Assembly (NCBI GenBank): GCA_903838415.1
Contig: CAILYI010000272.1
Location: forward strand, 1 to 64,000
Source of the DNA: an uncultured Anaerolineae bacterium
GTDB taxonomy: Bacteria > Chloroflexota > Anaerolineae > Anaerolineales > Villigracilaceae
Direction of reading: 5' to 3'
DNA length: 64,000 bases
The notes under the pieces were generated by a model. That model was given only the letters and a program-made list of their open reading frames with translations. It was not told the DNA's origin and searched no databases. A program made the position numbers and the translations under genes. Position 1 is the stretch's first letter. The number at the start of each line of letters is the position of its first letter. Positions 7,157-10,201 of this stretch are shown one piece after another.

Positions 7157-8401
7157 ATGAGTGTTCAAGAATCGTTTGCGAAAATTCGTCCGGCCATGCA
7201 AAAACGCGCCGCCAATACGCTGGCGCGCGGAGCCAACGTGCGGGAAGATTTTCAAGAACAATTGATTCGTTTTTTTGACCTGGTTGAGCAGGCGGTCACT
7301 TCGGGAGATGCGGCCTGGCTGGATCCTTTGCTGTATGAATGGGCCAACACGCGCACTGAAACCGACATTGAGGGCGGCGAACGAAATGTCACAGCGTTGC
7401 TCAAGCAGTTAATTTCGCTTTCCATTGATACTGCGCGCGAAAATTTGGAGGCCAACGAAGCGCTTGACCTGTTAAGCGCACTGGTGCCAATTTATTTGCA
7501 AAGTATCGAACGCGTCACGGCTTTTGAAAACGAAAGCCGGGCGGCTTATTTTTCGAACAAGCTTGAGACTCTGCAAAAGAAGATAGAGCGGGTTGACAAA
7601 AGCAAGTCCAATTTCGTATCCGTGGCTGCGCACGAATTCAAAACTCCGCTGACGCTGGTGGAGGGATATACTGCCATGCTCAGCGACGTGATGCCGTCGG
7701 ATTCCGAACAAATGCACATGCTGCTACAAGGTGTCCACAACGGCGTGCGGCGCTTGCGCGAGCTGGTGGATGATATGATCGACGTTTCGCTGCTGGATAA
7801 CAACTTGATGGCGTTCAATTTTCAGCCGATGTGGCCGAATCGCATCTTCAATTTGGTAAAAGCTGAATTCCAGCCTACCCTCGAGCGTCGCAATCTGACT
7901 CTCGAAGTGCGCGCATTTGCCGGGGCGGACGAATTGCTGTTTTCTGACCCGGAACGAATCTACCAGGCGATCAGGAACGTTGTCAGCAACGCGGTCAAGT
8001 TCACGCCTGATGGCGGCCGTATTACCATCGATGGACGAATGATGTCCGGGTTTATCGAAGTGACGATTACTGACACAGGAATCGGGATTTCCAGCGAGAA
8101 TCAGGATTCCATTTTTGAGAAATTTGGGCAGCTGGGAAATATTTTGCTGCATTCGAGCGGTAAAACCAAGTTTAAGGGTGGCGGTCCGGGGCTGGGACTG
8201 CCCATCACCAAAGGCATTATCGAGGCGCACGGCGGGAGCATTTGGGTGGAATCTGAAGGCTGCGATGAAGCCACCTGCCCCGGTTCCACCTTTCACATCC
8301 TTTTGCCGCTGCGTTCCCAGCCGAGCGACCCTAACCTGGCGCGCTTATTGAGCGAGTCAGTTTTCCCGTCAGAAAGCGCGGACGAGGCGCAGACTGAATA
8401 A
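7157..8401 (+). CDS. Soluble sensor histidine kinase
   Basis: A 414-residue kinase without membrane segments. Residues 1-125 are an all-helical region I cannot assign with certainty; its four-helix look resembles the RsbR/RsbRD N-terminal sensor fold. A short coiled segment leads into HisKA with the H box VAAHEFKTPLTLVEGY. A HATPase_c domain follows with NVVSNAVKFTPDGG, DTGIGI and GPGLGLPITKGII. The H box and ATPase are of the WalK/PhoR type. There is no response regulator next to it, so it is an orphan kinase. The start ATG follows a TAAACT hexamer by six bases and lacks a Shine-Dalgarno sequence, matching the leaderless pattern seen at other genes here. The C-terminal 30 residues are a hydrophilic tail. 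Confidence 0.88.
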   Translation: MSVQESFAKIRPAMQKRAANTLARGANVREDFQEQLIRFFDLVEQAVTSGDAAWLDPLLYEWANTRTETDIEGGERNVTALLKQLISLSIDTARENLEANEALDLLSALVPIYLQSIERVTAFENESRAAYFSNKLETLQKKIERVDKSKSNFVSVAAHEFKTPLTLVEGYTAMLSDVMPSDSEQMHMLLQGVHNGVRRLRELVDDMIDVSLLDNNLMAFNFQPMWPNRIFNLVKAEFQPTLERRNLTLEVRAFAGADELLFSDPERIYQAIRNVVSNAVKFTPDGGRITIDGRMMSGFIEVTITDTGIGISSENQDSIFEKFGQLGNILLHSSGKTKFKGGGPGLGLPITKGIIEAHGGSIWVESEGCDEATCPGSTFHILLPLRSQPSDPNLARLLSESVFPSESADEAQTE

Positions 8402-8639
8402 CGATTGTGGTATGATTAATTTGGTGGGACAAAGTCCCGTCGGTAATTTTTATCAGTTAAGGAGCAAGCGCCATGATCCGGTAGGTTTTGCAAAAAATAC
8501 TTAATTCCACGAATTCTCACGAATGGCGAATCCCGCGCGTGTACGATAATTCGTGGCTGTTTTCGGGCAAGCCGGATAACAAGGCTGCCAGAGAGCCGAG
8601 CAGTTCCCTTACACCTTTATCAGAAAACCTACAAATCCT
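8402..8639 (+). promoter_or_regulatory. Structured leader of hflX with a three-codon ORF
   Basis: This 238-base gap holds no ordinary gene. A TATGAT hexamer (8411-8416) could be a -10 box. It is followed by a small hairpin GGGAC-AAA-GTCCC (8426-8438) and a T-rich stretch. A perfect AAGGAG (8459-8464) then precedes a minimal reading frame ATG ATC CGG TAG (8473-8484; Met-Ile-Arg-stop). Further on, CCACGAATT (8507-8515) pairs exactly with AATTCGTGG (8548-8556). hflX itself starts without a good ribosome-binding site. The layout resembles attenuation leaders with short ORFs before ribosome-rescue or resistance genes; that function is inference. Confidence 0.45.
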
Positions 8640-9992
8640 ATGGCTAAAAGAAATCCTGAACCTACCTCACCTCCCCGCGAGAGGGCTTTTCTAGTCGGGG
8701 CTGAAATTTATCAAGAGAAAAATCTACTCACCCTGGAAGACTCCCTGTCGGAATTGACCTTATTGGCCGATACCGCCGGATTGGATGTCGTTGGTGAATT
8801 GACTCAAAAAATGGATCGCGCCCATCCGCAAACGTACATCGGCACAGGCAAGGTCGAAGAGCTGAAAACGTTGTGCGAAGAAACACTGGCAACGGTGGTT
8901 GTGTTTGATAATGAACTCAATCCACGGCATCAGCGCGAATTGGAAGAACTGCTGGCGCCCAATGTGCGCGTGATGGATCGCACGGCGCTGATTTTGGATA
9001 TTTTCGCGCAGCATGCCAACACGTCTGAAGGCATCCTGCAGGTGGAACTGGCCCAATATCAGTATTATCTGCCGCGTCTCACCCGTCAATGGACACATCT
9101 TGCCCGTCAGGGCGGCGGCGGTGGCGGACGTTCGGGCGGCGTGGGCGGCGTGGGTTTGCGCGGCCCCGGTGAAACCCAGTTGGAAGTAGACCGCCGCCAA
9201 ATCCGCACCAAAATCGCCCATCTCAAAAAAGAGCTGATTAAAGTCAGCGAACACCGTCAGCGCTATCGCGCCCAACGCAAACGCTCCAAAATCCCAACCG
9301 TGGCATTGGTGGGATATACCAACGCGGGGAAATCCACGCTGTTGAACAATATCGCCAAAGCGGATGTCTATACTGCGAATCAGTTATTCGCCACGCTCGA
9401 TCCAACCACACGCCGGGTGGATTTGCCAGGCGGCTACAACGGATTATTCACCGACACCGTCGGCTTTATCCAAAAACTACCGACAACGCTGGTGCAGGCC
9501 TTCCACGCTACACTGGAGGAGATTGCCGAAGCTGAGCTGCTGCTGCACGTGGTCGATATTTCGCATCCAAATGCCCTGGCGCAGTATGAATCTGTCCAGC
9601 AGACACTGATTAAAATCGGGGCTGAACATATCCCGGTGCTTACGGCGCTGAACAAAGTCGATCGTCTCAGCGACCCTGATGCCGCGAGTGCAATACTCGA
9701 ACAGTATGGGCAGGCCATCGCAATTTCTGCCAAATATGGAACCGGAATTCCCGAGTTAATTCAAAAGGTCAAGGAAGAGCTTTACGAGACCTTTGCAACC
9801 ATCAAGGTCTTTTTACCTTACCAGCAGGGACAGTTGATTTCCTTGTTCCACGAAGCCGGGCAAATCGACCGCATCGAGCATACGCGTGGCGGTGTGATGA
9901 TCCACGGGCGCATCCCGGGACGTCTGGTGGCGCAGTTTAACGAATGGCAGGCCAACCATCCTCCCAAGGAAGTGGAGGAAGCGGAAGTATGA
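8640..9992 (+). CDS. hflX: HflX, ribosome-splitting GTPase
   Basis: A 450-residue GTPase of the Obg-HflX group. It has the HflX N-terminal domain (TYIGTGKVEELK, then DRTALILDIFAQHANT), the glycine-rich linker GGGGGRSGG, the signature GLRGPGETQLEVDRR with a long coiled coil, then the G domain: G1 GYTNAGKSTLLN, G2 region FATLDPTTR, G3 DTVGFIQ, G4 NKVD, G5 SAKYG. HflX splits stalled or idle 70S/100S ribosomes, notably after heat or antibiotic stress. The leader upstream (8402-8639) has a short ORF and inverted repeats. A small membrane protein gene overlaps its stop by the ATGA arrangement. The start ATG has only a weak ribosome-binding site; it agrees with the family N-terminus. Confidence 0.96.
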   Translation: MAKRNPEPTSPPRERAFLVGAEIYQEKNLLTLEDSLSELTLLADTAGLDVVGELTQKMDRAHPQTYIGTGKVEELKTLCEETLATVVVFDNELNPRHQRELEELLAPNVRVMDRTALILDIFAQHANTSEGILQVELAQYQYYLPRLTRQWTHLARQGGGGGGRSGGVGGVGLRGPGETQLEVDRRQIRTKIAHLKKELIKVSEHRQRYRAQRKRSKIPTVALVGYTNAGKSTLLNNIAKADVYTANQLFATLDPTTRRVDLPGGYNGLFTDTVGFIQKLPTTLVQAFHATLEEIAEAELLLHVVDISHPNALAQYESVQQTLIKIGAEHIPVLTALNKVDRLSDPDAASAILEQYGQAIAISAKYGTGIPELIQKVKEELYETFATIKVFLPYQQGQLISLFHEAGQIDRIEHTRGGVMIHGRIPGRLVAQFNEWQANHPPKEVEEAEV

Positions 9993-10201
9993 TCAATTGG
10001 TTTTCCAAGTTTCTAGATCAGTCCTCGGACTTTCTGGCCCCGCGAAAGGGCCTGCTGCCGCTGATCGGGATTGGATTGATTATCCTGAACTTTGTACTGG
10101 TAAGCATTTTCCCGGACGGGTTTCTGATTGAAACCAATTTATTCCTGCACCTGGGCATCATCGTCGCTTTGATCGGACAGATGCTGGCCTGGGCGTTGTA
10201 A
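9989..10201 (+). CDS. Small two-helix membrane protein, unknown function
   Basis: The ORF track starts at 9944, but the ATG at 9989 overlaps the hflX stop in an ATGA junction and removes an unlikely Ser/Gly-rich extension. The 70-residue product begins with an amphipathic stretch (MINWFSKFLDQ), then has two hydrophobic helices (about residues 24-43 and 49-69) and ends a few residues after the second. I do not recognise a family. It is probably made by coupled translation with hflX and ends at a clear terminator. Its small size and C-terminal helix are typical of membrane-anchored accessory proteins, but no role can be assigned. Confidence 0.7.
   Translation: MINWFSKFLDQSSDFLAPRKGLLPLIGIGLIILNFVLVSIFPDGFLIETNLFLHLGIIVALIGQMLAWAL

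Follow-up and report, generated by a model that had tools for sequence, protein, structure and literature searches.

A conserved minimal open reading frame in the hflX leader of uncultured Anaerolineae, a candidate translation-attenuation-type switch

The hflX locus and its leader

The window, by which we mean the whole 64-kb stretch of DNA analysed, belongs to a genome of 5.67 Mb in 311 contigs (G000). Around the feature under study it carries, in this order, a gene for a PhoR/WalK-like histidine kinase, hflX, and a small open reading frame of 70 residues, with 238 bases separating the kinase gene from hflX (Table 1). G000 has one copy of hflX, the next match being only a 27% hit to the GTPase domain. 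The kinase gene adjoins hflX on the upstream side across the family. The small ORF, which overlaps the hflX stop codon, encodes a predicted membrane protein (MINWFSKFLDQSSDFLAPRKG...GIIVALIGQMLAWAL); its reading frame has no NCBIfam match, and comparable small ORFs lie 3' of hflX in a second genome of the genus (G002) and at several other family loci. In three further genomes of the same genus, G005 (97% complete), G010 (91%) and G008 (62%), hflX was not found at E<=1e-60, and only GTPase-domain matches of 25-28% were present.

The first-pass annotation of this DNA had described a three-codon ORF, Met-Ile-Arg-stop, eight bases after an AAGGAG, lying between two inverted repeats in a leader of more than 200 bases and followed by an hflX with no good ribosome-binding site. 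We confirmed the motif letter for letter, the spacer being CAAGCGCC (8465-8472), and the two flanking repeats are at 8421-8443 and 8507-8518/8545-8556. A third, long-range inverted repeat links positions 8481-8489 of the mini-ORF region with 8624-8632, directly upstream of hflX. The Shine-Dalgarno (SD) sequence of the mini-ORF forms an anti-SD duplex of -7.4 kcal/mol, as against +0.2 kcal/mol for the hflX ATG at 8640, which thus has no SD. The leader is probably about 217 nt long, because an extended -10 element would place the transcription start near 8423. This element, as TGGTATGATT or TGGTATCATT, is also found upstream of hflX in the congeners G002, G003, G007 and G009, and in genome G034. 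From its sequence and position, the hairpin at 8421-8443 is a candidate 5' stabiliser, or a terminator-like stem too close to the start for a usual attenuator.

Table 1. Features of the hflX locus in the window. G002 and G007 are genomes of the same genus; energies refer to the anti-SD duplex.
Feature	Positions	Strand	Remarks
PhoR/WalK-like histidine kinase gene	7157-8401	+	
Extended -10 element TGG-TATGAT-T (TGGTATGATT)	8408-8417	+	exact match in window; predicted transcription start ~8423
5'-end hairpin (inverted repeat), then TAATTTTTAT	8421-8443	+	not clearly kept in G007
Mini-ORF SD, AAGGAG	8459-8464	+	-7.4 kcal/mol; G002 -7.5, G007 -8.2
Long-range stem, 5' arm (predicted)	8470-8489	+	GCCATG 8470-8475 and GTAGGTTTT 8481-8489
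Mini-ORF ATG ATC CGG TAG (Met-Ile-Arg-stop)	8473-8484	+	same peptide in G002 (synonymous Ile codon); MFWQA-stop, same place, in G007
Middle hairpin, inverted repeat 8507-8518/8545-8556	8507-8556	+	species-specific; single copy in genome; followed by CTGTTTTC
Long-range stem, 3' arm (predicted)	8624-8644	+	AAAACCTAC 8624-8632 and TATGGC 8639-8644, including the hflX start codon
hflX, ribosome-splitting GTPase, 450 aa, without SD	8640-9992	+	NCBIfam TIGR03156 HflX equivalog, 452 bits (cut-off 217); single genome copy
70-residue small ORF	9989-10201	+	

Several other features of the leader were followed up. An 8-bp direct repeat, TTTATCAG, at 8449-8456 and 8616-8623 brackets the mini-ORF part of the leader and may be chance or the trace of an insertion; the short leader of G034 resembles a version without the stretch between the two copies. 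We rejected the repeat as a target-site duplication, since G002 and G007 have the mini-ORF without it. Past the mini-ORF TAG the frame stays open for 69 codons (8485-8694, + strand), across the hflX start; the corresponding frame is open for 34 codons in G002 and closed after five in G007. Read-through of the TAG into the frame that is open to 8694 in G000 was rejected, as G007 has two stops there. A dispersed repeat or mobile element was likewise rejected because the leader and the hairpin at 8500-8562 are single copy in the genome. An Rfam scan of the window returned no family at gathering score.

Conservation of the mini-ORF within the genus

We asked how often such a site arises by chance. 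A relaxed pattern, AGGAGN{5,9}ATGN6TAR, occurs once in the 64-kb window, and 14 of 100 shuffled windows also contain one, so the window alone is weak evidence against chance. The stricter AAGGAGN{5,9}ATGNNNNNNTAR occurs once in the whole 5.67 Mb of G000, at the hflX leader, with one match for the reversed control; such mini-ORFs are therefore no habit of this genome. An SD and ATG with a stop within five codons appeared in 0.5% of shuffled leaders.

We then examined the regions upstream of 105 hflX loci across the family. At 56 of these the kinase gene ends no more than 10 nt from hflX and leaves no room for a leader, a spacing that suggests that sensor kinase and ribosome-splitting factor share a transcript. 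Over the 105 loci, a mini-ORF (SD and ATG, ending within five codons) was found only in genus g1, in G000, G002 and G007, and in none of the other genera with a readable hflX leader. Three other candidates were discarded: one at L203 belongs to the end of a peptidase gene lying upstream, one at L152 has a TTG start and 25 codons, and one at L204 was unconvincing. The hflX leader of G034 (locus L009) has a clean terminator-like stem, AACCGGCAGTGTAAACTGCCGGTTTTTATC, directly after the -10 element and before hflX, and no mini-ORF.

The mini-ORF of G002 (ATG ATT CGG TAG) encodes the same MIR peptide in the hflX leader, the ATC/ATT change in the Ile codon being synonymous, and G007 has ATG TTC TGG CAG GCT TAA (MFWQA-stop) with an SD in the same place. 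The mini-ORF follows the -10 element by 56, 57 and 43 nt in G000, G002 and G007, and precedes hflX by 155, 112 and 82 nt. A search of 11 genomes of the genus for GGAGN{6,10}ATGATYCGGTAGG gave a single match in G000 and another in G002, each in the hflX leader; there were no matches in the other nine, nor for a reversed-pattern control. Between G000 and G002, hflX is near saturation at fourfold-degenerate sites, with 44% identity, and the island around the mini-ORF is identical at 18 of 22 positions, a match reached by none of 1000 shuffle pairs; it is the best conserved 22-mer of the two leaders. The island of G007 is not significant against G000 on its own (245 of 1000 shuffles), and it still has the SD, the ATG, the spacing and an AGGCTT in common.

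If the SD and ATG had arisen at random in a leader that is not translated, that would account for the site turning up in 14 of 100 window shuffles and for its absence from two congeners. Chance would leave unexplained the exact syntenic conservation despite near-saturated divergence, and the site is unique in its genome; we regard this account as quite improbable. Judged by sequence comparison, the mini-ORF site is more than chance and is a real, selectively kept feature.

The conserved island might also be an untranslated RNA or DNA element, such as a site for an RNA-binding protein, a small RNA or an RNA polymerase pause, in which the three codons are incidental. Conservation does continue past the stop codon, as an AGGYTTTTG-like stretch in G000 and G002 and AGGCTT in G007. 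Such an element would not call for the retention of SD, spacing and ATG in all three species, for an Ile change that is synonymous, or for SD strength held with different letters (GGGAG in place of AAGGAG). We consider it fairly unlikely.

The first-pass annotation had named conservation in related genomes as a check on the mini-ORF, and the outcome is divided: it is present in G002 and G007 and absent from G003 and G009. The latter two have the promoter in common with the others, with hflX about 40 nt after it and no mini-ORF. In the tree, G002 groups with G003 and G009 (92/86 support), so that on the simplest reading the mini-ORF is probably older than the split of G002 from G003 and G009, and was lost once there. 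The closest relative, G001, has its hflX cut by a contig end, which makes its leader unreadable, and G004 and G006 have a different gene upstream of hflX.

Predicted pairing with the hflX start

In the best folds of the G000, G002 and G007 leaders, the mini-ORF start region is part of a long stem with the bases directly upstream of and at the hflX start. The predicted pairing spans 80-155 nt and involves different sequences in each species. In the window, GCCATG would pair with TATGGC and GTAGGTTTT with AAAACCTAC, while the SD would pair with TCCT at 8654-8657; the predicted partners are GATTCGGTAGG and CCTACTGAATC in G002, and GTTTTGTAAG with CTTACAAAAC and GAAATG with CATTTC in G007.

The duplex energy of the mini-ORF region against hflX -40 to +6 is -19.6 kcal/mol in G000, -35.3 in G002 and -30.6 in G007, values reached by 99, 0 and 1 of 2000 shuffles, respectively. 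Genomic pairs at the same distance and matched for GC reached them in 11.6%, 0.27% and 0.13% of cases; for pairs unmatched for GC the figures were 57%, 2-9% and 8-12%. The whole-leader fold of the window species has z = -1.9. By these calculations G002 and G007 have strong pairing, and that of the window species is weak, or not exceptional. Arms exchanged between species reached only -13 to -19 kcal/mol; because swapped arms pair this weakly, the arms match within a species while their sequences differ between species. Such matching in the model folds would be expected of a function that is kept. It does not amount to column-by-column covariation, since the base pairs are not homologous across species, and G007 could not be aligned with the other two leaders column by column.

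We also calculated what a ribosome on the mini-ORF would do to this structure. A footprint there lowers the calculated opening energy of hflX -20 to +14 from 8.3 to 2.5 kcal/mol in G000, from 8.9 to 4.4 in G002 and from 15.2 to 5.2 in G007, a calculated drop of 4.5-10 kcal/mol over the three species, and mid-leader footprints change it little. In G002 and G007 the energy also drops with footprints near the 3' arm. For G002, hflX is opened further by a footprint lying towards the SD than by one with the start codon at its centre, and 12 of 41 positions gave lower calculated values. Opening the mini-ORF start itself costs a calculated 8-13 kcal/mol or so before the partner is transcribed and 17-28 afterwards.

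A strong SD with a mini-ORF could instead be a ribosome dock, shielding the mRNA against RNases or holding the leader open at all times, with nothing being sensed. All three species have the strong SD before an hflX that lacks one. PMC8708949 cites as precedents from EHEC the two-codon minigene of ler and the six-codon mini-ORF of LEE4, whose mRNA is protected by occupancy of the SD. A dock predicts neither the species-specific pairing with the hflX start nor the conservation of codons beyond the SD, and we think it unlikely.

Transcription attenuation in the style of Listeria rli80-hflXr, with a stalled ribosome preventing an intrinsic terminator upstream of hflX, would fit the analogous gene and leader ORF as well as the terminator-like stems in the window leader (8507-8556, then CTGTTTTC). 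The middle hairpin, though, is missing from G002 and G007, neither of which has a stem with a T-run between mini-ORF and hflX; the 5' hairpin sits at the transcript start, and there is no RLR motif. This arrangement is improbable here.

Could ribosomes that end at the mini-ORF reinitiate at hflX? Translational coupling usually acts over distances far shorter than the 82 to 155 nt between the mini-ORF stop and hflX, and other family members have an SD-less hflX with no mini-ORF at all. These points make termination-reinitiation very improbable, even though it would suit an hflX without its own SD and reinitiation at leader peptides has been proposed (PMC4833913).

A proposed occupancy switch and known leader ORFs

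Taken with the model folds, these results lead us to propose, with a probability that we put slightly below one half (about 0.48), that a minimal ORF makes this leader a switch of the translation-attenuation type. During transcription of the leader, the mini-ORF, with its strong SD and its ATG, could take up a ribosome. Should none be there by the time the hflX start has been transcribed, the mini-ORF start region would pair with the bases upstream of and at the hflX start, and the stem would close both starts, leaving the SD-less hflX poorly translated. A ribosome dwelling on the mini-ORF, through stalled initiation, slow early elongation, or slow termination or recycling, would cover the 5' arm; the hflX start would then stay open and ribosome-splitting factor would be made. 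The signal would be ribosome dwell or occupancy at the start, the early codons or the stop and not the nascent peptide, because the peptide has only 3-5 residues and is not conserved. The analysis shows the sequence with its conservation, the predicted pairing and the calculated opening energies; we infer where transcription starts, that the mini-ORF is translated, which way the regulation runs and what is sensed.

Two features of translation attenuation are present: a short ORF that precedes the gene in the leader and has its own SD, and a leader predicted to sequester the downstream translation start, strongly in G002 and G007 and weakly in the window species. Counting against the switch, the mini-ORF occurs in three species only, and G003 and G009 have none. 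The earlier suggestion of a minimal translated sensor has gained from the conservation and from the predicted structure, which would couple the hflX start to the presence of a ribosome on the mini-ORF. Since HflX is a factor that splits and recycles ribosomes (PMC6310831), its induction by long dwell would make sense. A bolder version, which we think unlikely, is that the three-codon ORF measures how long ribosomes dwell at initiation, early elongation or termination, whatever the peptide, and feeds back on HflX; HflX may in turn remove the ribosome from this ORF, which would complete a homeostatic loop.

In the literature searched, the worked-out case of a leader ORF is that of the resistance paralogue hflXr of Listeria. 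If the proposed switch is correct, a three-codon leader ORF responding to occupancy only would set the sensing of occupancy apart from that of a nascent peptide, and would come close to the minimum for a natural translation sensor. Control by a leader ORF would then also be known from uncultured Anaerolineales-type bacteria, where our literature search found no earlier case.

The first-pass annotation had drawn a parallel with Listeria, which is looser than it was put there. In Listeria monocytogenes, rli80-hflXr likewise has a leader ORF before an hflX homologue and alternative RNA structures, but the regulated gene is a duplicated resistance paralogue, hflXr (lmo0762), beside a separate hflX, and the leader ORF, 14 codons long and bearing an RLR motif, acts by way of an intrinsic terminator and antiterminator (PMC6310831). 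Neither an RLR motif nor a leader peptide of about 14 residues was found here (MIR in G000 and G002, MFWQA in G007), no stem plus T-run is kept between leader ORF and hflX among these three genomes, and G000, with one hflX, has no additional copy as the regulated gene.

Other attenuators share some of these traits. In the erm and cat translation attenuators and the streptococcal msrDL (MYLIFM, PMC10314930), a gene related to the ribosome is controlled by whether a ribosome occupies a very short ORF in its leader. Their arrest needs a drug together with a nascent peptide or a release-factor block, whereas here the peptide is not conserved, and msrDL acts via an intrinsic terminator (PMC10314930). 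Closer in size are the minigenes axe-txe mg2 (two codons), EHEC ler (two), EHEC LEE4 (six) and B. subtilis ycbK, leader ORFs of 2-6 codons that have their own SD and act downstream (PMC8708949). By sequence, the signals of such minigenes (an ORF of 2-6 codons) are present and conserved here. Unlike the mini-ORF of this leader, mg2 and ycbK lie near the downstream start and LEE4 protects its mRNA, and none of these minigenes is described in PMC8708949 as pairing with a downstream start over 80-155 nt or as preceding hflX.

On the best reading, the proposed mechanism is nearer to E. coli toiL, the uORF of topAI-yjhQ, than to Listeria rli80. In toiL, too, the leader ORF contains sequence that pairs with the region of the downstream start. 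Tetracycline or retapamulin stalls ribosomes on the start codon of the uORF, which opens the downstream start, and one leader reports several kinds of stall (PMC12121999). That system differs in controlling a toxin-antitoxin gene that has its own ribosome-binding site, in its longer ORF, and in the Rho-dependent termination that follows repression (PMC12121999), whereas here the ORF has 3-5 codons and hflX is SD-less. The minimal size of the ORF is thus not new in itself; what appears to be new, within the literature searched, is that such an ORF occurs together with a predicted long-range stem at a housekeeping hflX.
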